Virus record (IMG/VR): IMGVR_UViG_3300035158_000089
Span: 1 to 22,605 of that record
Source of the DNA: a virus
DNA: 22,605 nucleotides
Direction: 5' to 3' (one strand)
Shown here: in pieces, positions 1 to 15,518 of the stretch
Numbering within the stretch: position 1 is the stretch's first letter
How the letters are laid out: each line of letters begins with the position of its first letter
Notes under the pieces: model-generated
The model's input: the letters and a program-made list of their open reading frames with translations, nothing else
Told to the model about the DNA's origin: nothing
The model's database searches: none
Program-made: the position numbers and the translations under genes

Positions 1-1001
1 ATCTCACAGCTCGTCTCGCAGCCCATCTCACAGCTCGTCTCGCAGACACTCTCACAGCCAGTCTCGCAGCCCATCTCACAGCTCGTCTCGCAGCCCGTCT
101 CGCAGCTCGTCTCGCAGCCCATCTCACAGCTCGTCTCGCAGCCTCCCGTCTGGCACCCGCCCGTCTGACAAGAGACGGTCTGGCAGGACGTGAGCTCACA
201 GCCGATCTGACAATCGGTCGTGCAGCCGATCTCGCAGCCAGTCAGACAGCCCGCTGTGGCCTGACAGGAGGTCTGACAGAGGGTCTGGCATGGACCTTGG
301 CAGGTGGTCTCGCAGAAGTCGCAGGCCTCATCGCCCGTCTGGCAGACGGTCGTGCATCGGACCGTGCAGCCCGTCGCGCAGGCGTCCTGACAGCCTCCCG
401 TGCAGTCGTTCTCACAGCCAGTGATCTCGCAGCCGGTGATGCAGCCAGCCGTGCAGCCGTAGGCGCAGTAGTTGGTGCATCCCCCGGTCGTGCAGCCTCC
501 CACGGTGCAGCCAGCGGTCGTGCAGCCCCCTGAGACGCAGCTACCTGAGGTGCAGGAGCCCTGTGTGCAAGCCGACGTGCAGGAGCCCTCGGTGCATTGA
601 TTCGTGCAGCCTGAGCTCTGGCAGCTCACGGCCTCACAGAAGGGGCAGGAGGTCTCGTCAGCGGCGACGGTGCAGCCCCCGGTCTGGCATCCCCCGGTCT
701 GGCACCCTGTCTGGCAGGATCGGCCCTCACAGCCGGTCTCACAGCCAGCCTGACAGGCAGTCGTGCAGTCCTCCGTGCAGCCCGAGGTGCAGGAGCCCTC
801 GCAGCCCACCTGACAGCCACCCCCGAGCTGGCAACCTGCCGTGCAGTTGAGCTCACAGCCGTTGACGCACACGAGCTCACAGAGACCCTGACAGTCGGTC
901 TCACAGGCATACTCGCAGGCACTCTCACAGCCAGTCTGGCAGACCCACTCACAGGCCGTCTCACAGCCCGTCTCGCAGCCCATCTCACAGGTCGTGGAGC
1001 A
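1..1001 (-). repeat. Coding tandem-repeat tract of 12-15 bp units (Cys tetrapeptide repeats)
   Basis: This is the DNA encoding the Cys tail of the hub-like protein. The unit is basically TGY-GAG/CAG/ACG-N3-GGC/AGC, 12 bp long, with some 15-bp units (CQTGG type). Units are diverged from about 150 to 1000 and nearly identical from 1 to 150. The plus strand shows endless cagctcgtctcgcag-like strings. It continues past the left edge, so its total length is unknown. Confidence 0.9.
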
Positions 1002-3122
1002 TCCGGCCCATCGGGGAAGCTCCAGCTCCAGCTCGACGATGTCGGGCTCAGGGGGGTCCCCAGCCCCTAGAATCCGGCGCTGGCTCCGGATCAGGGCAGG
1101 CTGGTCAGCAGTAAAGAAGGTCGTCCAGTCGAGCGCCAGCGTGTCCTGCCTCTCCAACTCCATGATGTCGAGGTGGGCCTGCAGCTTGACGATCTCACGA
1201 GGGAAGGCCAGACGCTGCAGCCAGAAAGCCATCACAGCCGCTACCGGACGCCTGCTCTGGTAGCACCAGAAGCTGATCCTCGCAGCCCGCCTACCATAGG
1301 TGGTCTGTGAGGTCGTCTCGACGCCCTTGAGCTGCTTGGGCCTCCGATCCTTCTCGATCCCGGCCTCCTCCCACGTCGCCAGAATCTCGTTGGTGACCTT
1401 GTCCCGGTCGCTCTCCTCGATGTCGAGCTCGTCTTCGGTGATCTGACTGTTGTCCAGCGTGTACCCTGACGCCGTGATCTTGTTGCGGAGGACGCACCAC
1501 CGGACCTTGTCACGGCTCCAGTCGAGCACAGAGCGGGCTTGGAAGGCCAGCTCAGCAAAGAACTCGGCAGGATCGACCTCCTTCGTGATGGCGAAGCCCA
1601 TCTTGAGGGCTGCCAGCTCGGTGTCTGCCGCGTCGAAGGAGGGCACGTCGATGTCAGCCGCCGTCAGCGCCAGATCGCGTGTCATCACGGCGTAGACGAT
1701 CTGGGCCGGGAGGTTGATAGGCACACCTCCCCCGTCATCGGGCAGGGACGAGCACCCCGTCAGGCTCACGTAGAGATGGTCGTCCTTGGCGTTCGGCATG
1801 ATGTTCATCAGAGGCCGGTTGAGCGTAATCGTCGTCAGCGTTCGGCCCGAGATCGCCGTCGTGTTGGCCAGATCGACCGTGTAGGCCGTCCTCGGTATCT
1901 CGATCCAGCCCTCCTGCTCGGCGACGGTGACTCCCGTCACGATCAGGTGATTATCGTTGCAGGTGCCCTCCTCACGGGCTGTGCCATCCCCTGATGTGGT
2001 CCCCCAGACCATGACCCTCTCGACCTGCACAGAGGCCATGTCATTGGCCACGTAGACGTATTCCTCGTCGTTGAGGAGCCAGTAGACGGCTGCCCCCGCG
2101 TCATGGAAGTCGGCGACCGAGACGAGGTCGTAGTCATCCCCTGAGGCCGGAACATACCAGTCAGACGCCGTGTCGTCCCAGATACGAGGCCGGAACCAGA
2201 GGACGTTGTTCGCCGCGTCGAAGCCTCGGACCGTCGAGAGGTGCTTCTCGCCGTTCAGGAAGAAGCGGACCTTGCAGCCGTTGTAGCTGTAGGGATTGCC
2301 CCCTAGCTTGTCGTCGATGAGCTGGTAGGGGCTGGCAGACGCTGAAGTCGTCTTCGAGGACCAGAACACCCGCCCTCTCTGAACGATGGTGAACTTGCGC
2401 CCGTTGAAGTAGCCGAGGATGTGCTCTTGGTCGATGAGAACCCAGATGTTCGTGTTCTGGGGGAAATCGCTGCTGTCCTCGACGTAGAAGGAGCCCACAG
2501 AGCCCTCCACGAGCCCCGAATACTTCAGCTCCATGGTCAGGGTAGTCTTGGCCCCATACTTCAGGCTGACGGCCTTGACCCGCTCGACACGACCGTAGAC
2601 CCGAGGGAGCACCCTGCCCTCATCTGACGGGTCCAGATACTCGTAGTCGTCACGGCTCACGCTGAAGGTCAGGGGGTCCGACCAGAGGGTGCTCACGTCG
2701 GTTACGTCGAGCCGTAGAACGGCCTCCCGTTCGTCCCAACGGATCGGGACTGAGACCGTTCCCCTCAGGATCGGCACGATGCTGCTGGCCCCAGTCCCCT
2801 CGAACCACTGATGGACCTTCACCGTGCATCGCTGGACCTCCTCAGTCCTGATCTTGCCGAGGAGGTCCTTGTCGGGGTCCAGCAGCTCAACCTGGATGTC
2901 ACCCACGCCACCCGACCGCTGTGAGCCCCTGAGGTCCACCCGGCCCCACGATCTCACCCGTCCCTCGGCGTCTACGGGGTCCCCACCTGCTATCGTGAGC
3001 TCACGGTCAGCATACCACTTCGTTCCGATGGCCCCGCCCCAACGAACCTCCAGCAGGTTGGCAGGGATGGCCCCCTCAGTCTTGACCTTCTCGGCATTGG
3101 TCTCGGCGCTCAGGATTATCAT
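1..3122 (-). CDS. Hub-like minor tail protein with giant Cys-repeat C-terminal tail (3' end outside window)
   Basis: One frame stays open from ATG 3122 to the left edge, giving more than 1040 residues. The start overlaps the previous stop as ATGA. Residues 1-707 form a mostly beta-rich body. It has a P-R-V-Y-G segment of the kind common in siphovirus tip or hub proteins and sits just after the tape measure and a small tail protein, which is the hub or tail-associated position. From Cys708 (base 1001) composition changes abruptly: 77 Cys fall in about 334 residues, nearly all spaced four or five apart as C-[E/Q/T]-x-[G/S/A]. Two C-x-F-C motifs interrupt the series. The tail is acidic and almost free of Lys. 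The body is ordinary tail protein by position and style; the function of the Cys tail is unknown. Disulfide ladder, metal binding or surface adhesion are all only inference. The C-terminus is not seen. Confidence 0.88.
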   Translation of the reverse strand, partial: MIILSAETNAEKVKTEGAIPANLLEVRWGGAIGTKWYADRELTIAGGDPVDAEGRVRSWGRVDLRGSQRSGGVGDIQVELLDPDKDLLGKIRTEEVQRCTVKVHQWFEGTGASSIVPILRGTVSVPIRWDEREAVLRLDVTDVSTLWSDPLTFSVSRDDYEYLDPSDEGRVLPRVYGRVERVKAVSLKYGAKTTLTMELKYSGLVEGSVGSFYVEDSSDFPQNTNIWVLIDQEHILGYFNGRKFTIVQRGRVFWSSKTTSASASPYQLIDDKLGGNPYSYNGCKVRFFLNGEKHLSTVRGFDAANNVLWFRPRIWDDTASDWYVPASGDDYDLVSVADFHDAGAAVYWLLNDEEYVYVANDMASVQVERVMVWGTTSGDGTAREEGTCNDNHLIVTGVTVAEQEGWIEIPRTAYTVDLANTTAISGRTLTTITLNRPLMNIMPNAKDDHLYVSLTGCSSLPDDGGGVPINLPAQIVYAVMTRDLALTAADIDVPSFDAADTELAALKMGFAITKEVDPAEFFAELAFQARSVLDWSRDKVRWCVLRNKITASGYTLDNSQITEDELDIEESDRDKVTNEILATWEEAGIEKDRRPKQLKGVETTSQTTYGRRAARISFWCYQSRRPVAAVMAFWLQRLAFPREIVKLQAHLDIMELERQDTLALDWTTFFTADQPALIRSQRRILGAGDPPEPDIVELELELPRWAGCSTTCEMGCETGCETACEWVCQTGCESACEYACETDCQGLCELVCVNGCELNCTAGCQLGGGCQVGCEGSCTSGCTEDCTTACQAGCETGCEGRSCQTGCQTGGCQTGGCTVAADETSCPFCEAVSCQSSGCTNQCTEGSCTSACTQGSCTSGSCVSGGCTTAGCTVGGCTTGGCTNYCAYGCTAGCITGCEITGCENDCTGGCQDACATGCTVRCTTVCQTGDEACDFCETTCQGPCQTLCQTSCQATAGCLTGCEIGCTTDCQIGCELTSCQTVSCQTGGCQTGGCETSCEMGCETSCETGCETSCEMGCETGCESVCETSCEMGCETSCE
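7..141. repeat. Near-identical 24-bp tandem repeats
   Basis: The 15-mer cagctcgtctcgcag occurs five times, at 7-21, 31-45, 79-93, 103-117 and 127-141. Spacings are 24, 48, 24 and 24 bp. The full 24-bp unit encodes two tetrapeptides (CETS and CEMG or CETG). Such homogeneity next to diverged copies suggests recent expansion by slippage or unequal recombination. Confidence 0.9.
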
Positions 3123-3562
3123 GCCGCTGCCGTCACCTCCAGCTCAACGCTGACCGACCAGACCGGCTCCTCACGGGTTGTCGTCGGGTAGGCTGTGCCC
3201 GTAGCCCCATCCACTTGGAAGGTGCCCGCTGAGGCCACCTGATCGTCGAGCTGGGTCCACTTGAGCGTGTCATGCAGGAATCGAGCGGTCCACGAGTTGC
3301 CCTCGTGATCCGTGAGCGTGAAGGTGTAGGTCATCCCCTCGGCGCTGTTGTCGAAGAAGTCCTGCAGAGCATCCTTCTCAGCGTCCCTGAGGGCAACGAA
3401 GTCGGCCTCCAGAACGATCCTCGCCGTGCCCTTGGAGTAGACGTAGGGCGTCCCGTCAGCCGCCCGGCTCAGGGCCTGACGTGCGGTCCTATTCTCACGG
3501 TTGGACCGCTGGGGGTTCTGGATGTTGCAGGTCGTGCCGCCCTTCACGAAGCTCCAGCTCAT
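3119..3562 (-). CDS. Small tail protein between tape measure and hub (distal-tail-like by position)
   Basis: A protein of 147 residues starting at ATG 3562, which overlaps the tape-measure stop by one base (TGATG). A strong AGGAGG lies seven bases upstream. An earlier in-frame start is possible but would lie inside the tape-measure gene and lacks this signal. The sequence is beta-rich, with alternating segments such as YTFTLTDHEGNSWTARF, and ends with VWSVSVELEV, which resembles beta-sandwich tail-tip adaptor proteins. Gene order (tape measure, this gene, hub) is where the distal tail protein or its functional equivalent sits in siphoviruses. The role is assigned from position and fold style, not from a diagnostic motif. 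Confidence 0.8.
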   Translation of the reverse strand: MSWSFVKGGTTCNIQNPQRSNRENRTARQALSRAADGTPYVYSKGTARIVLEADFVALRDAEKDALQDFFDNSAEGMTYTFTLTDHEGNSWTARFLHDTLKWTQLDDQVASAGTFQVDGATGTAYPTTTREEPVWSVSVELEVTAAA

Positions 3563-5970
3563 CAGGCAGCCTCCTGCCCCTTGCCGCCCATCTTCTGCTT
3601 CCACCACCTGTCGAGCTGCTGGAGCACGTAGGGCATGACCTTGTCACGGACTGTCTCACGGGTGATGTCACCCTCGACCTTGATGTCGAAACTCGCAGCC
3701 CCACCTCCAGCCGCCCCAGCAGCCCCAGCCTTGGGCTCAGGAGCCCCCTGCTCGGTCGTCGGACCCTCGGGCTCGGCCTTCTCCTGCGTCTCAGGAGCCG
3801 TGGGGGCTGGCATCGTCTGGTCGGAGCCCTCCAATGCCGTGCCCACCTGTGAGGCCAGCTCAAGGGTCCTACGGAGATTCTCCTCGGCAGTCCCCGTGTT
3901 GATGTTGAGGTCGTATTCCCGCTGGACGAGAGCAGCGAACTCCTCATACATCGTCTTCACGTTCTCTAGCTGCTGCTTCCGGGCCTCCATGAGCCCTTCT
4001 TCAGCCGTCGTCTGCTGCTGGATCGTTTCGAGGATGAACTGCTGGGCAGCCTGCGTCCCACCCATGTCGCCCATCTGCTCGTAGTAGTCCATCGCCTTCT
4101 CAGCCAGATCGAGGGCGTCGTCGAAGTCACCCGCCTCTCGGGCACTCCTCGCGGTCCCTGCGATCTGCTGAGCGAACATCCGCTTCTCAGCCTCAGCCTG
4201 CTGCCTGATGGCGTCTGCCCGTCTCTTGTAGCCCGCCTCGATGGCCCCAGCCCGGCCCTCGATGCTCTGTCGCCTCTGCTCCTCCTGCAGATACTTGCGC
4301 CGCTGCTCAGGAGACATGCCCCGGAGCCTGTGCTCCCTCTCAGCCTGTGCTCTGAAGGCGTCTGCAGCCCTACGGCCCTGCTCCTCCAGACCACTGGCAG
4401 CCTCGGACATCTGCGACTGACGGAACCCAAAAGCCTTCTCGGCGAAGCCCCGCTCAGCCTCTATCGTCGCCTTCTTGAGGTCCCTGATCTTGTTCTCGTG
4501 GTCCTCGACAGCCCGCTCGACCTCACGCAGGAGGTCCTTGCAGACGCTGGCTGCCCGCCGCTTCTCCTCGATCTCCTCCTTGACCCGCTCCTTGACCTCA
4601 CGGACCTGCGTCTTGTAGCTCTCAGCCGTGTCGGCCTCGATCTCAGCGTAGTAACGCTTGAAGGCCTCAGACTGCTCATCGAGGGTCTTCTCGACCTCAA
4701 GCTGAGCCTCCCTGAGGAGCTGACGCTCCTTCTCAGCCTCCTCCTCAGCGAGAAGACGGGCCTCCTCCGCAGCCATCTCCTCCCGCCTCTTTTCCTCCTT
4801 CATGGCTGCCAGCCTGGCCATCGAGCGACGATTCGCCTCGTTGATCCAGCGGGCATACTGGCCCTCCTCAGTCCCAGCCTTAGCCTTCCAAGCTTCTCCC
4901 AGATTGGCCCAGAAACCCTTGACATGCTCGTTAGCCAAGTCCTCGTCGCCGAGGGTCAACGACGTACCCATCGCGGCAATGGCGTGGAGGTTGGCCTTGA
5001 CCGTGAGATCCATCGAACGGAGGAAGCCTACGAGCTTCTCGCCGGACATCTGCGCCCTCTGATTGGCCGCTTCCATCTCAGCGATCATCTCGGGGTAGGC
5101 CTCCCGGAGAATCTCCAGCTCCTTGCGGGACAGCTCCAGAGAGGTCGTCCAGTCTTGGAAGCCCTTCGTGAGCCCCGACAGGAACCCCTTGGCCTTCGGG
5201 CTCTCGGAGACGATCCGGCCCATCTCCTCCCTCAGACCCTTCCATGAGCCCGACAGCTTGCGGATCACGTTGACCCACGAGCCGCCTGTGCGGGCGAGGT
5301 CACCCTGAGCGTCCTTCGTGGACTGCATGATGATGTTGATCCGGGCCTGCACCTTCTCTTGGGCTGTGAGCTCGTCATAGCTCTTTTCCAGCCCCATGTT
5401 CCATGCCTCCTGCGTGATCTTGTTCTCGTCGATCACGATGCCGTATTTCAGGAGAGCACGGTGCATCCCGACGATGCCCGAGGTGATGGCCGACATCGCC
5501 TCCTCGGGAGCCTGATCCTTGAAGGACCCGAGGTCGACGGCCAACTGAGCGATCTCACGGCTCGTCCCGGCAGCCTCCCCCCTCATATAGCCGAGGGGAA
5601 CGAGGGTGTCCTGTATCTGGGCCAGCCAGTCCTCCCACTGGCTCCGAGCATAGCCCAGCGAGGTCATGTGGTCGGTGATCCAGAGGTCGGTCTCGGCGGT
5701 CCACGCCCGGAAGGTCGACGTGAAGCGGTTGCGGGTCTCCTCGGCCTTGCCAGCAGCGTCTGCCGTAGCCTTGACGGCCATGAACATGGCCCGGCCCAGA
5801 GCGATGGCTGCAGCGGCCACCGCCATCAGGGCCAGCTTCGACTGAGCGAAGGCAGCAGCGGACTCCTTGCCCGCCCGCTTAGACTCCCTCCGGACCTCGT
5901 TCATGCCCTGCTTGAACTTCCGCACGTCGGCAGAGACGAGAGCCCTGAGCTCAGATGCTACAGTCGCCAT
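3562..5970 (-). CDS. Tape measure protein
   Basis: An 802-residue protein that should span the tail lumen and set tail length. The N-terminus (MATVASELRALVSADVRKF) and a hydrophobic stretch near residues 45-68 are typical of tape measures. Residues about 100-270 resemble the conserved N-terminal tape-measure region. About 390-700 is long, charged, Ala/Glu/Arg-rich coiled coil, followed by a Pro/Gly/Ala-rich linker and a short C-terminal domain. With the usual 0.15 nm per residue, the tail would be about 120 nm. It starts at ATG 5970 behind GAGGAGG and overlaps the upstream chaperone by 13 bp. No lysozyme or peptidase domain is evident. The family call is based on length, architecture and position after the chaperone pair. 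Confidence 0.92.
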   Translation of the reverse strand: MATVASELRALVSADVRKFKQGMNEVRRESKRAGKESAAAFAQSKLALMAVAAAAIALGRAMFMAVKATADAAGKAEETRNRFTSTFRAWTAETDLWITDHMTSLGYARSQWEDWLAQIQDTLVPLGYMRGEAAGTSREIAQLAVDLGSFKDQAPEEAMSAITSGIVGMHRALLKYGIVIDENKITQEAWNMGLEKSYDELTAQEKVQARINIIMQSTKDAQGDLARTGGSWVNVIRKLSGSWKGLREEMGRIVSESPKAKGFLSGLTKGFQDWTTSLELSRKELEILREAYPEMIAEMEAANQRAQMSGEKLVGFLRSMDLTVKANLHAIAAMGTSLTLGDEDLANEHVKGFWANLGEAWKAKAGTEEGQYARWINEANRRSMARLAAMKEEKRREEMAAEEARLLAEEEAEKERQLLREAQLEVEKTLDEQSEAFKRYYAEIEADTAESYKTQVREVKERVKEEIEEKRRAASVCKDLLREVERAVEDHENKIRDLKKATIEAERGFAEKAFGFRQSQMSEAASGLEEQGRRAADAFRAQAEREHRLRGMSPEQRRKYLQEEQRRQSIEGRAGAIEAGYKRRADAIRQQAEAEKRMFAQQIAGTARSAREAGDFDDALDLAEKAMDYYEQMGDMGGTQAAQQFILETIQQQTTAEEGLMEARKQQLENVKTMYEEFAALVQREYDLNINTGTAEENLRRTLELASQVGTALEGSDQTMPAPTAPETQEKAEPEGPTTEQGAPEPKAGAAGAAGGGAASFDIKVEGDITRETVRDKVMPYVLQQLDRWWKQKMGGKGQEAA

Positions 5971-6821: not shown

Positions 6822-7325
6822 TTAGACCTTGCTGAACGACGGGGCCGTCTCCCAATCGACGAACGTGAAGCGGAGAGTGTTGTATTCGTCTCCCTCCGAG
6901 AACTCCACGCTCTCCGCGTGGAGGTAGGCGAACTCGATGAGCTCGTCACTGTTCGCCGTGATCGGGTCTGCGACGGTGACCTCCATCTCTACGCAGTAGA
7001 CCTCGTTGCCACCACTGGCAGCCGCGAGGGTCCCGGTGTAACCGGCAGCCGTACCAACCTGCATCAGGAACTCGTAGGGCGTGGCATCTGCGTCACCCGC
7101 CTGCTTGATGAACTCCCGGAACTTCAGAGTCATCGAGCCTTCCACAGGGGCCTCGTCCCCCGCCCTGGCGTGCGAGAGAGCCCCACGGTCCATAATGCGA
7201 CGGATGGGGTCCTGAATCGTGAAGCTCAGGTCCCCCTCCTCGCAGGCCAACGTGATGCTCTGGGCACCACCACTGGTCTTCAGGACGATGGTCGCATCCC
7301 GAAGGTTCTTCGTGATCGAGGCCAT
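6822..7325 (-). CDS. Tail tube protein paralogue without Cys tail
   Basis: A 167-residue protein starting at ATG 7325. It is clearly paralogous to the next gene upstream along its whole length. Shared segments include TKNLRDA, ACEEGDLSF, RRIMDRGAL, EGSMTLKFREF and EFSEGDEY-TLRFTF. The beta-strand pattern and position before the chaperones fit a siphovirus major tail (tube) protein. It ends at the point where its paralogue goes on into the Cys repeat, so the tail has been gained by one copy or lost by the other. The two may form a mixed tube, or one may be the major subunit and the other a specialised minor one. It lies about 17 bp after its paralogue. Confidence 0.8.
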   Translation of the reverse strand: MASITKNLRDATIVLKTSGGAQSITLACEEGDLSFTIQDPIRRIMDRGALSHARAGDEAPVEGSMTLKFREFIKQAGDADATPYEFLMQVGTAAGYTGTLAAASGGNEVYCVEMEVTVADPITANSDELIEFAYLHAESVEFSEGDEYNTLRFTFVDWETAPSFSKV

Positions 7326-7342: not shown

Positions 7343-7912
7343 CTACTCGGCTGAGGTCTCACAGCCCGTCTGGCAGGCCGTCTGGCAGGACGCCTCACAG
7401 GCGGTCTCGCAGCTCGTCTTGACCACGGTCGGCGTCGTGATCCACGCAACGAAGGTGAACCGGAGCGTGTCATACTCGTCACCCTCAGAGAACTCGATGT
7501 TCTCAGCGTGGAGCTTCGTGAGGGTAATCATCTCGTTGTCGTTGGCCGTGATCGCGTCGTTGATCGTGATGTCCATGTCGACGCAGTAGACCTCGTCCCC
7601 GCCTGAAGCCGAGGCCAACGTCGTGAGCCACGCTGCCGCCTGATCGACCTTCTGGATGGCAGCATAGGGCGTCACAGCCGCTGCCTGATCGTAGAACTCC
7701 CGGAACTTCAGGGTCATGGACCCCTCGATGGGCTGCTCATCACCCGCCCTCAGGTGGGCCAGAGCGCCCCTGTCCATGATCCTGCGGACCGCATCCTGCA
7801 CCGAGAAGGACAGGTCGCCCTCCTCACAGGCCAGAATCACCTTGTTGGGCGGGCTGCTACCGTCCTTGATGACGACCGACGCATCCCGCAGATTCTTCGT
7901 TACTGAGGCCAT
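7343..7912 (-). CDS. Tail tube protein paralogue with C-terminal Cys tail
   Basis: A protein of 189 residues when started at ATG 7912, which overlaps the previous stop as TGATG; a GTG codon directly before it is less likely. Residues 1-165 match the downstream tail-tube paralogue. Residues 166-189 add Cys168, 172, 176, 180 and 184, exactly four apart, within E/Q/T/A/G/S residues. The tube fold is inferred from position and beta pattern. C-terminal extensions of tail-tube proteins are known to project from the tail surface (the lambda gpV C-terminal domain is an example), so the Cys tail is probably exposed. The five-Cys end shares 23 identical bases with the end of the next gene upstream (7362-7384 and 7931-7953). 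Confidence 0.85.
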   Translation of the reverse strand: MASVTKNLRDASVVIKDGSSPPNKVILACEEGDLSFSVQDAVRRIMDRGALAHLRAGDEQPIEGSMTLKFREFYDQAAAVTPYAAIQKVDQAAAWLTTLASASGGDEVYCVDMDITINDAITANDNEMITLTKLHAENIEFSEGDEYDTLRFTFVAWITTPTVVKTSCETACEASCQTACQTGCETSAE

Positions 7913-8379
7913 CACTCACCTCCGGTTTCGCAGCCCGTCTGGCAGGCCGTCTGACAAGTGCCCTCGCAGCTCGTGCCGCACGGGTTCTCGACGATTATGG
8001 GGAAGCGGACGACATAGCCTCTCACGCCCTCTACCTCCCCGACCATGTTCAGCTCGCCCTCCAAGCACCTGACGATCCGGGCGTCAGCCGTCTGGATCGC
8101 TACGTTCTCGAACAGCGTCGTGAGCTCGTCAGCAAGCTCATCCGGCCTGTAGGCGTTCGTGCCGCCTTCCCTTACAAACACCCGGACCTGCAACTCTGTC
8201 GCCGTCCGTTGCCACGAGGGGCGCTGAGGCTCCTGTGTAACCCCTACCACGTCGGGCTCGATCCACTCCTGATCGTCCTGTGTGTCAGCCCCTACACCCG
8301 GCCAGACGATGTTCGTGGTCGACCAGTTGTCGTTGAGCCGACCAAAGAGCGCCGCTCTGGCATCCTCGATGGAGATCAC
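7912..8379 (-). CDS. Tail terminator-like protein with C-terminal Cys tail
   Basis: A 155-residue protein from GTG 8379, overlapping the previous stop as GTGA. The body (MISIEDARAALFGRLNDNW, central beta strands, TELQVRVFV, VVRFPIIVE) and its position between the neck genes and the tail tube fit the tail terminator/minor tail family that caps the tube at the head side. The protein then ends in a Cys tail with Cys134, 138, 142, 146 and 150, in the same CQTACQTGCET style as the adjacent tube protein. I call the body by gene order and fold style; the tail is read directly. It probably shares one surface with the tube Cys tails. Confidence 0.75.
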   Translation of the reverse strand: MISIEDARAALFGRLNDNWSTTNIVWPGVGADTQDDQEWIEPDVVGVTQEPQRPSWQRTATELQVRVFVREGGTNAYRPDELADELTTLFENVAIQTADARIVRCLEGELNMVGEVEGVRGYVVRFPIIVENPCGTSCEGTCQTACQTGCETGGE

Positions 8380-9909: not shown

Positions 9910-11040
9910 TTACGCCGTGTTCTTGTAGTTGTAGCGATGGTCCCGGCAGTGGGCCGTGCCCCACTCACGGAACTTGAACTGCTCGACGATGTCCTTCGTC
10001 CAGCCGTCCTCGGTCTCTCGCCGACGCCTGAAGCTCTGGAACGGCCAGTGCTCCCGGTAGAGGAACGCCCGCTTCGGAGCGCCCAGATACCATGCCGTCC
10101 CCGAGTAGCCGTCCACGAGCGGACTCGACACGAGCCTCGGGGTGGCCCCCACGAGACTCGACACGAGGTTCGGGCCGTTGGTCTGGATGAGGCTGCCAGC
10201 GCCCGACGTGGCCGAGGTCTGCCTGATCTCGGTCGCACCGATGATCCGCAGGGCAGTCGCACGGAGAGCCCACGGAACGACGATGGTGTTGACCGGGACG
10301 ATGATCTTCTTGCCTTCAGGGCTCGTCTGAGCGGCCATGGTCTGCATACAGGCGTCGATGTCCGTCCAGTCGACGAGCCCGTTGCCGGTCGTCAGGTTGC
10401 TGTTGTCGGCGTGGTAGATCGTCGTCGCCGTGCCATCGGGGTAGTAGTTGTTCGTCGTGCCCGTGAAGACGTTGAGCATCCGCGTCTCGCGGTCCAGACG
10501 AATGAACTCCCCGATGCCCGAGGCGCGGTCCAGCAAGACGCCCGTCTCGTCGAAGAAGATGGACTCCTCCGTGATGCTCAGGAGGACACCCCGCTTCTTC
10601 CCCGACGTGAAGCTGACGTAACGGTCCCGCAGCCCGCTCTCCGGATACGGCTCGGCCTCGTTCACCTCATCGGTCTCGTCCTGCAGGACGAAGCCGGGGG
10701 TCCGTTCCGTGCGCTGCCTCGAAGGCCGCACGGTGAACAGGGAGTCGCCGATGTAGCCCACCATGTTGTAGGCTTCGAGGACCTGCCCTGTCAGGACCTG
10801 TCCCGTGATGTCGGCGAACGCCGTCGAGTCCACGGCGGCTTCGCTCATCTGCACGAAGCCCTCGGCCCTCTGGGCGAACTCCAGCGTTTGCCCACACGGG
10901 CCGACGAGGCTTTCCCAGAGCTCCTTGATGCTGAAGTCGCTCGGCTTGACTTCACCCGAGGCCAACAGCGTCTTGAGCTTGTTGCAGACGGGGCCGACGC
11001 CTTCGGACTCGACGAGCTGTTTGAGAGCAACGCCGTTCAT
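9910..11040 (-). CDS. Major capsid protein (HK97-fold type)
   Basis: A 376-residue protein starting at ATG 11040 with a strong AAGGAG site formed by the preceding stop (TAAGGAG). The size, the position after decoration and protease-scaffold genes, and the organisation (helical N-terminus to about 55; then QMSEAAVDSTAFADITGQVL; then a beta-rich core and a basic end) fit an HK97-fold capsid protein of the type with separate scaffold. The N-terminal 45 residues contain two L-x-E-S tetrapeptides (9-12 and 41-44), like those in the protease-scaffold protein, and may be a cleaved propeptide. The capsid call is strong by context; the cleavage is inference. Confidence 0.88.
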   Translation of the reverse strand: MNGVALKQLVESEGVGPVCNKLKTLLASGEVKPSDFSIKELWESLVGPCGQTLEFAQRAEGFVQMSEAAVDSTAFADITGQVLTGQVLEAYNMVGYIGDSLFTVRPSRQRTERTPGFVLQDETDEVNEAEPYPESGLRDRYVSFTSGKKRGVLLSITEESIFFDETGVLLDRASGIGEFIRLDRETRMLNVFTGTTNNYYPDGTATTIYHADNSNLTTGNGLVDWTDIDACMQTMAAQTSPEGKKIIVPVNTIVVPWALRATALRIIGATEIRQTSATSGAGSLIQTNGPNLVSSLVGATPRLVSSPLVDGYSGTAWYLGAPKRAFLYREHWPFQSFRRRRETEDGWTKDIVEQFKFREWGTAHCRDHRYNYKNTA

Positions 11041-13308: not shown

Positions 13309-13575
13309 TCAGGAGCGCATTTCGGCCCACAGATAGGGGCCGATGTAGTAACGGGGGAGAGCCTCCAGAAAGGCTCTGCCGTCACGGGGCTTGAGGGGCT
13401 TCTCAGGGTGCGGAGCCATCTTGGGCATGATGCCCTCAGACTCCCACTGCTCCTCAAACAGCTCGATCTCACCCACCTTCGCGCCTTCAAGGGGCAGGAG
13501 GGTCACAACACCGTCCATCAGGCTGACAGCGCAGACCTCGCCGCGCCCGTGATGCTTGAGGATCACTTCGATCAT
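13309..13575 (-). CDS. Small protein of unknown function between head proteins
   Basis: An 88-residue protein. ATG 13575 is chosen over the upstream TTG because it overlaps the previous stop as ATGA. The sequence starts with a beta hairpin (MIEVILKHHGRGEVCAVSLMDG), then VVTLLPLEGAKVGEIELFEEQW and a Pro-rich, more polar end with an aromatic segment (RYYIGPYLW). There is no signal peptide or membrane segment. It is coupled to the kinase-bearing head gene and precedes the protease, so it is probably a head accessory or regulates its neighbour. I do not recognise a family. Confidence 0.7.
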   Translation of the reverse strand: MIEVILKHHGRGEVCAVSLMDGVVTLLPLEGAKVGEIELFEEQWESEGIMPKMAPHPEKPLKPRDGRAFLEALPRYYIGPYLWAEMRS

Positions 13576-15518
13576 GTAGGGGGTCCCCAATGCTCCTGTT
13601 CCTGCTTCGCCTTACACTTCTCCCAAACGCTGTAGCACGAACCTTCTACCGTCTCATCCGAGGACATCGCGTCATAGAGCCACTCAGCCCGCTCCCGCGC
13701 CCGGTCCACGCTCATCTGGCTGAGCCCATGAACAGACCGAAGCCCAGACCAGTAGTCGTCGTCCGACAGGAGCTGCTGGACAGCCGCCCTCTCAGCCCGT
13801 GTGAAGTGAGTCTGCGTCGAGTAGCTCGACTTCCAAGCGTGGAACCAGTCATACTTCTCGGTCCAGTGCTCGGGCATGAAGGACCCCCCGTGGTCGATCC
13901 CCCATATCCTGCCGTCAGCGTCCAGCCTCCAGTTCTCGTTGTTCCTGTCCTGATTGCCGATGATGACATCAAGGATGATGAGCCGTCGATGCTGGGCTCT
14001 CTGAGCTCGTGACCACGGTAGGCTGTCATCCTGAGAGCTGAAGGTGCCATGCTGCCCCAGCCAGTCCTTGCCCTCCAGACTGTCCTCCACCCACTGCATC
14101 ACGGAGGCCTTGCCGCTGTAGGGGATGCCCTGAACGTCGGTGATGTCCCGGATCACGGTCGCGGGGACCGGGTTGTCCCCACCCCAGAGCCGCTTCCCCG
14201 TGTCATAGACCGCACTCTCAGCCTCCATGAGACCGTACTGTAGGCCCTCCTGAGGCTTTATGACGGCGTGGTAGCCGTTCGGCCCCTTGACCTCGTAGGT
14301 CGGGTTGATCCCGCCACCCAGCTCCTGTGCTGAGCTCACGGAGCCATGGCCCATCTTGCGCTCGGCCACCTGAGCCAGCTCCTCGGGGGACGGACCGCCC
14401 ATCGTGGGCTCCAGCGTCTCGGGCTGTGTGGGGACCGGAGGCTGAGCTCCTGCCGGGCCTTTGGCCTGAGGCTTGATCGTAGGAGCCCCCTCAGGGCCTT
14501 TCGCAAGCACCTCCCCCATCGGGGGGATCCACCACTGCTGCTTGGGGTCCAGAGGCTTGAAGCCCGGCTCGAACAGCTTCGTCGTCCGCACGAAGCCGGT
14601 CTTGTGGTCGACCACCTCATAGGCCCCATCCTTCAGGTGCCCGACGATGGTGGCCGTCCTCCACTCAGCGTTGACCTTGATCCGGATCGTCTTGCCGTAG
14701 AGGGCGTCATACCCTTCGGCCTGTGCCCATTCAGCGTAGGCCTGAGAGGTGTCCGGCATCAGAGCCCAATGGGAAGTCGGCTGCTGGAGGGGGATGCCGA
14801 TGTCGGGCACCTTGTTGCCCACCACAGGAGCCCAGAGGTCGGAGTGCCGGTAGAACATGTGGTAGCGACCGTTCTGGTCCCTGACCCACATACGGTCCCC
14901 TTCCATCCGGGTCACAGCGCCTTTGATGTAGACGTGCTTCTTCTCCTTCGGATCGTAGGCCAGCCCGTAGACATCCTTGCCGTAGTAGCCCGCCGTGACA
15001 TCCTGCTGATACTGGAAGGCCCACGTCTCGGCGACCTTATACTGCTCCTGCGTGATGATCCCCGGAGCTCCGGGATGGTCCGGCCTCAGCGTCTTCGCGG
15101 GCTCCTCATCGGGCAGCGGCTCGATGAAGTCCGAGAGGGCGTCCTCGCCCGGTCCCGACATCGCCACGTCGAGAGCGGCCTCCCCCTCCTCTCCAAGCTG
15201 ATTGAGCGTCAGGAGCTTACGAGGGTCCTTGCTGTTGACGAATCGGTGCAGGGGGACCCCGGTCTTCCACAGGTTGTAGCGAGAACGCCCGAGGATGGCC
15301 AGAGCGAAGCCAGCATGGCGGGCGTCCATCCGGCCCATCCACGCCTCGAAGGTCAAGTCACCCTCGACCGTCCCGCCCGTTGCGGCCTGAGCCGACAGGA
15401 GCGGAGTCCCCTCGAACTCCCCTCCCGGCCCGAGGAACGCAGGGATCGGGACCTCGGTGCATCGGCAGTTCGGATGCACCGGCTTGTAGGGCATCTCACT
15501 GACTAGACGCTTCGCCAC
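13572..15518 (-). CDS. Mu F-like domain end fused to PI3K/HipA-like kinase domain
   Basis: A 648-residue protein from GTG 15518; ATG 15494, directly after the previous stop (TGA-G-ATG), is an alternative start. Its first residues, PYKPVHPNCRCTEVP, are the typical end of the Mu F/SPP1 gp7 head-morphogenesis domain. Then comes the usual downstream segment (FEAWMGRMDARHAGFALAILG, residues 58-77, and LLTLNQLGE). Residues 160-330 contain small beta modules of unknown type, and 335-385 a Pro-rich linker. Residues about 390-620 look like a kinase: GGG (401-403), Lys421 in HAVIKPQEG, Glu434, catalytic loop GNQDRNNEN (D524, N529), and metal-binding I-D-H-G (D542). All key residues are present. The W-G-I-D-H-G ending resembles PI3K/HipA-like and actinobacterial SCO1664-type proteins. 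Substrate unknown. Confidence 0.85.
   Translation of the reverse strand: MAKRLVSEMPYKPVHPNCRCTEVPIPAFLGPGGEFEGTPLLSAQAATGGTVEGDLTFEAWMGRMDARHAGFALAILGRSRYNLWKTGVPLHRFVNSKDPRKLLTLNQLGEEGEAALDVAMSGPGEDALSDFIEPLPDEEPAKTLRPDHPGAPGIITQEQYKVAETWAFQYQQDVTAGYYGKDVYGLAYDPKEKKHVYIKGAVTRMEGDRMWVRDQNGRYHMFYRHSDLWAPVVGNKVPDIGIPLQQPTSHWALMPDTSQAYAEWAQAEGYDALYGKTIRIKVNAEWRTATIVGHLKDGAYEVVDHKTGFVRTTKLFEPGFKPLDPKQQWWIPPMGEVLAKGPEGAPTIKPQAKGPAGAQPPVPTQPETLEPTMGGPSPEELAQVAERKMGHGSVSSAQELGGGINPTYEVKGPNGYHAVIKPQEGLQYGLMEAESAVYDTGKRLWGGDNPVPATVIRDITDVQGIPYSGKASVMQWVEDSLEGKDWLGQHGTFSSQDDSLPWSRAQRAQHRRLIILDVIIGNQDRNNENWRLDADGRIWGIDHGGSFMPEHWTEKYDWFHAWKSSYSTQTHFTRAERAAVQQLLSDDDYWSGLRSVHGLSQMSVDRARERAEWLYDAMSSDETVEGSCYSVWEKCKAKQEQEHWGPPT

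Follow-up and report, generated by a model that had tools for sequence, protein, structure and literature searches.

The cysteine array at the C terminus of the tail-tip hub protein analyzed here is, as we read the sequence comparisons, quite likely to be a domain that is fused to virion tail proteins and that serves as substrate for a ranthipeptide-type radical SAM/SPASM maturase encoded by the phage, which would convert it into a ladder of thioether rings. The tail would then probably be a chemically crosslinked spike rather than a string of free thiols. The DNA studied (the window) consists of positions 1 to 22,605 of the linear virus record IMGVR_UViG_3300035158_000089, and it carries a siphophage structural module with genes for terminase, portal, a Mu F-like protein, capsid, head closure, neck, terminator, tube, tape measure, distal tail protein, and hub. 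The features relevant to the arrays are given in Table 1.

Table 1. Positions of tail and capsid genes and of Cys arrays in the window.
Feature	Position	Strand	Basis or remark
Tail-tip hub protein (T5 pb3 / lambda gpJ type by predicted structure), at least 1040 aa	3..3122	-	Translation, AF2, Foldseek, hub relatives
Hub Cys array, 77 Cys, C-[E/Q/T]-x-x repeats; proposed radical SAM maturase substrate domain	3..1001	-	
Distal-tail-like protein adjoining the hub	3119..3607	-	phmmer against relatives
Tape measure protein	3562..5970	-	phrog_1535, E 1.8e-11
Putative tail-tube paralog 2, without Cys array	6822..7325	-	Alignment
Putative tail-tube paralog 1, with C-terminal Cys array	7343..7912	-	Alignment with paralog 2 and four relatives; gene position
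5-Cys array CETACEASCQTACQTGCETSAE, C terminus of tube paralog 1	7346..7411	-	Glu at +5 from the last Cys
Tail terminator with C-terminal Cys array	7912..8379	-	phrog_179 tail terminator, E 3.9e-11
5-Cys array CGTSCEGTCQTACQTGCETGGE, C terminus of the terminator	7915..7980	-	Gly after the first Cys; Glu at +5 from the last Cys
Major capsid protein	9910..11040	-	Pfam Phage_capsid_4, E 3.5e-17

The hub gene ends the tail module, behind the genes for the tape measure and distal tail proteins, and its reading frame is open through the contig end; the 3′ end of the gene is missing, so the 77 Cys counted are a lower bound. By sequence, comparison of the hub protein with Pfam, PHROGs, and the PDB gave nothing useful, and tblastn of the hub body or of the arrays against phage records gave no match. 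An AlphaFold2 model built with nine sequences had pLDDT values mostly of 70–90 over the body (residues 1–700), and a Foldseek search with this model returned the DT57C/T5 hub (E 2e-15) and lambda gpJ (E 4.5e-12). The body is therefore, on the evidence of the model, a tail-tip hub of the T5 pb3/lambda gpJ type, and the original prediction was right to call the protein hub-like. The resemblance to T5 pb3 and lambda gpJ covers the fold of the body and the position of the gene after those for the tape measure and distal tail proteins, whereas the C-terminal extension of the window's hub is a Cys array; we know of no Cys array in the T5 or lambda hub. The array was mostly modeled at pLDDT below 35 with no confident fold, which leaves the proposal of a helix with Cys along one face unsupported.

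The 337 residues from 704 to 1040 contain 77 Cys (22.8%), compared with 6 Cys in the 703 residues of the preceding body. Residue 708 (window 999–1001) is the first Cys of the array and is followed by Ser. Among the 76 Cys-to-Cys spacings, 53 are 4, 17 are 5, and 6 have other values (a spacing of 3 occurs twice and one of 2 is absent); the 70 spacings of 4 or 5 compare with a maximum of 29 in 20,000 composition shuffles. The residue directly after Cys (+1) is Glu in 30 cases, Gln in 19, and Thr in 19, and the 49 cases of Glu or Gln compare with a permutation maximum of 29. A quarter of the +1 residues are Thr, which stands for Glu/Gln in the middle segment of the array, and only 53 of the 77 Cys have Glu/Gln at +4 to +6, while 70 of the 77 have Glu, Gln, or Thr at +5 or +6. 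These counts bear out the earlier description of at least 77 regularly spaced Cys from residue 708, at about 23% Cys and mostly in C-[E/Q/T] units. A blastn match in the faecal contig MT836263 was set aside, as it sits on a CGTG/CGAG repeat without the Glu/Gln pattern.

A search of the window DNA against itself revealed two more copies of this repeat type, of 5 Cys each, that the original prediction had not spotted. According to the translations, CETACEASCQTACQTGCETSAE and CGTSCEGTCQTACQTGCETGGE each run to the stop of the protein that carries them. The terminator assignment also has a match to Pfam Phage_tail_terminator_5 (E 3.7e-5) just under the cut-off of that family. The gene of tube paralog 1 sits between the terminator and tape measure genes; its product is 64% identical to paralog 2, and the array is present in paralog 1 only, the tube protein of the four aligned relatives also being without a Cys array. 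The AlphaFold2 model of paralog 1 was poor, and its Foldseek matches, although all to tail tubes or Hcp, were not significant (best E 0.006); they are suggestive of a tail-tube protein. Elsewhere in the window, the gene that follows the Mu F-like gene (13572–15518) has a match to the Pfam PI3/PI4-kinase family barely above the cut-off (E 3e-6, residues 509–552) in the C-terminal part of its product.

Relatives were gathered from IMG/VR by C-[E/Q]-x-x repeat patterns and by alignment of the hub body; a search with the single hub sequence found no relative, but the alignment-based search did. Similar arrays occur in dozens of uncultivated phages, on hub proteins, on P2 gpI-like proteins (Pfam Tail_P2_I), and on other tail proteins, as well as on proteins in Clostridia and planctomycete MAG contigs. 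The proteins that carry them are mostly virion proteins of 150–1700 aa in which the array is one domain. The array-bearing hubs of the relatives share 24–29% body identity with the window's hub, and the gene order of the window is common to four relatives with capsid identities of 39–50%; the distal-tail-like protein is kept at the equivalent position in L267, L268, L264, and L269 (phmmer E 1e-23 to 1e-28). A frame break between body and array had been named as a possible refutation of the fusion; none was found, and relatives assembled from other samples show the identical fusion. When the hub body alone was used for searching, 8 of 10 loci carried such an array, and the contigs of the two with array-less hubs (L270 and L271) had no radical SAM match. 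The hub of L271 (2874–7085, on a 12 kb contig) has Thr-rich, mucin-like linkers and scattered Cys-rich stretches where the array would be. In L256, a Cys-rich protein (3–1349) has an 8-residue CxxxGExxC-like repeat that precedes a C-[E/Q]-x-x array. PHROGs already includes the repeat type of the arrays as family 6085, to which no function is assigned; this family matched the array stretches of L182, L190, L023, and L238 (E 3e-5 to 4e-7) and gave no match to the window's hub array at E 0.1.

The hubs of L264 and L268 were compared codon by codon. At the 64 array Cys codons, 27 synonymous and 2 non-synonymous differences were counted, and at the 249 other array codons there were 76 synonymous and 84 non-synonymous differences. 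As judged from these substitutions, the array Cys codons are under purifying selection.

The placement of Glu and Gln at the ends of the arrays was evaluated in 98 non-redundant arrays with 2376 Cys. Of the 1982 inner Cys, 1772 have Glu or Gln as the +1 residue, compared with only 17 of the 98 first Cys. The residue at +5 from the last Cys is Glu or Gln in 63 of 87 arrays, against a background of 0.09, though no Cys precedes that position; the other 24 last Cys lack Glu/Gln at +5. The position follows the next Cys: where this is 5 residues away, Glu/Gln is found at +6 (0.86), and where it is 3 residues away, at +4 (0.74). At inner positions with a spacing of 4 on both sides (n = 1447), Glu (743) and Gln (566) dominate and Thr ranks third, with 7 Asp and no Asn. 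Because the arrays were picked by interior Cys only, their ends played no part in the picking; because arrays within one protein are not independent, p-values are descriptive. Among arrays sorted by hand as DNA-repeat ORFs (n = 23), Glu/Gln was present at +5 in 4 of 19. In the window, both short tails have Glu at +5 from the last Cys, and the first-Cys rule is obeyed by the hub and the terminator and broken by the tube tail. These end effects are what a chain of Cys(i)-to-Glu/Gln(i+5) links needs, since no donor exists for the first +1 residue and an acceptor must be available to the last Cys.

Of 27 contigs, made up of array contigs and the two array-less hub relatives, 20 contain a radical SAM domain (PF04055), versus 2 of 49 control contigs, which were other IMG/VR contigs of the same scans pre-sorted as array-less (Fisher p 1.5e-10, as first sorted); one of the two positive controls proved to hold an array gene abutting the enzyme gene. 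In nearly all cases, the enzyme and array genes overlap, abut, or are separated by no more than about 2 kb (one pair is 6.6 kb apart). Wherever a contig runs on, a radical SAM/SPASM gene nearly always adjoins the array, and the array contigs without an enzyme mostly stop in or near the array. In L256, which has no PF04055 match, an ORF located 0.9 kb upstream contains a CxxxCxxC motif. The enzyme gene lies downstream of the hub in L264, L268, and L269, among the four relatives with the window's gene order; it is 0.6 kb from the array hub in the planctomycete MAG, and in two Clostridia contigs it overlaps the array gene. No radical SAM gene was found on the window's own 22.6 kb contig, which ends inside the hub gene; truncation of the contig in the hub array explains this, short of proving it.

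Two further searches agree with the linkage of array and enzyme. A reverse search with an alignment of eight enzymes found arrays in 35 of 80 loci, always on the same strand as the enzyme, and several of these arrays had escaped the Cys patterns; more than half of the loci, mostly distant ones, were without an array. The major capsid protein was also used as a probe for relatives that is blind to both array and enzyme. This sampling gave 5 contigs with array and enzyme, none with the enzyme alone, 25 with neither, and 1 with an array only, which ends inside the hub (p 3.5e-5), many of the contigs being short and the array search being confined to the fetched stretches. Among the five contigs with both, L438 has repeated ends, which mark it as a complete, circular genome (about 33.4 kb); behind its hub array, which spans the contig ends, come an array ORF of 98 residues, the enzyme, and a GT9-like ORF recognized by the N-terminal motif of GT9 genes. 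A glycosyltransferase family 9 gene follows the enzyme gene in four of five tested loci by the Pfam cut-off, the fifth being just under it. Such heptosyltransferase-like genes recur behind radical SAM genes in L281 (17006–18151), L345 (8729–9757), L282 (5903–7036), L299 (13394–14395), L290 (9950–10888), and L462 (contig 30123–31172; N-terminal motif only), and their recurrence makes sugars on Ser/Thr of the repeats possible.

Several loci have unusual arrangements. In L286, a 172 kb phage (G011 contig 70168–72720), the radical SAM ORF by the arrays is 851 aa long with seemingly two intein-like insertions, and in L296 (G023 contig 28128–33980) one small protein with an 8-Cys array lies amid four radical SAM genes. 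A second radical SAM type (CNAGCTYC/CNAACLYC) is found directly behind the array gene in L282 (3482–4603), where it is additional to the PapB/SCIFF-like enzyme, and in L285 (3–1154). A human faecal phage contig, L425, has a small ORF (5420–5632) with GECQTSCQSACKTSCTVGNQ, in which Gln is at +5 from the last array Cys, and a radical SAM gene just downstream. Two cultured phages were considered as carriers and rejected: Achromobacter phage JWF (L429, gp026–gp031) carries a radical SAM gene behind gpJ in its tail operon and no such array, and Campylobacter phage CPt10 has radical SAM genes and no Glu/Gln array within the stretch examined. In JWF, gp028, near the radical SAM gene, contains a CNCDCNCNCSC stretch that may be the target of the enzyme.

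The enzymes were compared with characterized maturases. In NCBIfam, the PapB ranthipeptide maturase or the SCIFF maturase was the top match for all 10 enzymes scanned, followed closely by QhpD-type and nif11 maturases and, at weaker scores, by sactipeptide and cyclophane maturases; every enzyme was below the curated cut-offs (best PapB score 209.5 versus 340 bits, best SCIFF score 216.9 versus 425 bits). The best solved structure was 5wgg (E 2e-34), which we take to be that of CteB. Alignment A3 of the enzymes has invariant Cys at 118, 122, and 125 (CxxxCxxC) and at 425, 428, 434, and 438 in a SPASM-type C-terminal motif, and the TIGR04085 SPASM domain is above its cut-off in L282. By sequence homology, the enzymes clearly belong to the group of ranthipeptide maturases (PapB, SCIFF/CteB, and QhpD), at scores below the curated family cut-offs.

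The QhpD crosslinks sit in a structural protein subunit of quinohemoprotein amine dehydrogenase. This maturation (TIGR03906) offers a homologous enzyme and a precedent for thioethers in a structural subunit, but there a small enzyme subunit receives few links, whereas the arrays here are long and on phage tail proteins, and the score is below the cut-off. The bacterial peptide systems TIGR04115, TIGR04119, and NF038107 (CXXX-repeat, Cys-every-fifth) share a Cys at every fourth or fifth residue and weak enzyme matches, but the phage enzyme scores far under their cut-offs (e.g., 111 versus 350). The systems of PapB (freyrasin) and CteB/SCIFF (thermocellin) are similar in that a Cys-repeat substrate lies beside a radical SAM/SPASM enzyme of the shared homology group and in that the acceptor is a carboxyl side chain or Thr a fixed distance downstream of Cys. 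They differ in that the substrate is a short precursor peptide with C-X3-Asp/Glu, whereas here it would be a large protein of the virion whose Cys can number more than 100 and whose Glu/Gln acceptor is proposed at i+5, and the enzymes score under the family cut-offs. PapB links Cys to Asp, accepts Cys-Xn-Asp with n of 0–6, and also accepts Glu and nested rings (PMC9413430); CteB joins Cys to the Cγ of Thr, and the Cys crosslinks of QhpD are named in the same paper (PMC11002830).

From these patterns we infer thioether chemistry with S–Cγ bonds, i+5 pairing, and a mechanical or adhesive role. The enzyme, which for the window phage would be encoded just left of base 1, probably joins each Cys sulfur to the γ-carbon of the Glu or Gln (sometimes Thr) five residues downstream, which is normally the residue directly after the next Cys. 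The overlapping rings would form a ladder along the C-terminal extension of the hub, and five-ring tags would be formed on the terminator and one tube paralog, giving a tip spike together with crosslinked tags along the tube, provided that paralog 1 is incorporated. At the tail tip, this would yield a spike or adhesive that is stiff, redox-proof, and resistant to proteases.

The carbon attacked by the enzyme is not fixed by homology, and sactipeptide and cyclophane maturases also appear, at weaker scores, in the NCBIfam scan, so a radical SAM enzyme might modify the arrays in another way, by sactionine (S-to-α-carbon), ether, or C–C links or by epimerization, with Glu/Gln serving for recognition only. 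We consider this unlikely, because the best matches are maturases of non-α thioethers and because the need for Glu/Gln (7 Asp and no Asn among 1447) and the acceptor at +5 from the last Cys fit a side-chain acceptor. A rod or adhesin that is crosslinked by disulfides or exchanges them, with the radical SAM gene serving another purpose, is less probable still. Dense, strongly conserved Cys on a tail tip outside the cell would suit such a rod, but neither the in-phase Glu/Gln, nor the positions of these residues at the ends of the arrays, nor the association with radical SAM genes is predicted by it; thioredoxin was found in only 2 of the 27 contigs and Erv/Alr in none, the latter by a search without a positive control. 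The covalently crosslinked rod that the original prediction had offered is probably correct in essence, with the evidence favoring thioethers made by an enzyme over disulfides.

A metal-loaded filament, with the array binding metal or iron-sulfur clusters, would draw on the Cys content of about 23% and the many Glu, and radical SAM enzymes are themselves iron-sulfur proteins. Metallothioneins and rubredoxin-type sites use CxC and CxxC motifs, which the hub spacings (4 or 5 in 70 of 76, 3 only twice, and never 2) do not resemble, and Gln is accepted like Glu although it is a poor ligand; we regard this explanation as very improbable. Free thiols, metal loading, and disulfide exchange, all raised earlier for this protein, leave both the in-phase Glu/Gln rule and the linked radical SAM/SPASM gene unexplained. 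There is next to no chance that the array is an artefact, either a 12-base DNA repeat translated as an open frame or an error in the assembly or in the frame. Many genome-contig matches to the DNA pattern are indeed plain 12-base repeats, and these, which were most of such matches, were set aside. The units of the arrays are diverse, however, the fusion of body and array recurs in relatives at 24–29% body identity, and the DNA-repeat ORFs do not follow the +5 rule (4 of 19); the artefact reading is refuted by the purifying selection on the Cys codons.

In the open-access literature that was searched, no paper was found that joins radical SAM enzymes to phage tail crosslinking, and no report was found of this modification in any virion or of a natural substrate with so many rings. 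This agrees, for open-access papers, with the original statement that no phage family with this architecture had been described. In Campylobacter phage CP220, 11 radical SAM proteins have been reported and read as possible metabolic enzymes (PMC2853527). What is already known is the homology group of the enzyme and the logic of a Cys-to-acid acceptor; what would be new is their use on virion proteins.

Going beyond the thioether ladder of the window's hub, we think it rather more probable than otherwise that phage radical SAM enzymes turn Cys arrays of tail proteins (hub, tube, terminator, and baseplate) into polymers, thioether ladders that can exceed 100 rings, and that this is a widespread and unrecognized virion maturation, possibly with GT9 glycosylation, by which redox-stable spikes or adhesins of the tail are built. 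With the i+5 rule, the chemistry can be tested directly. If the interpretation is true, phages covalently crosslink their own tail proteins by a RiPP-type radical enzyme, unexplained phage radical SAM genes would gain a function, puzzling Cys-rich phage proteins would be explained, and a genetically encoded, redox-stable, crosslinked protein polymer would be on offer.
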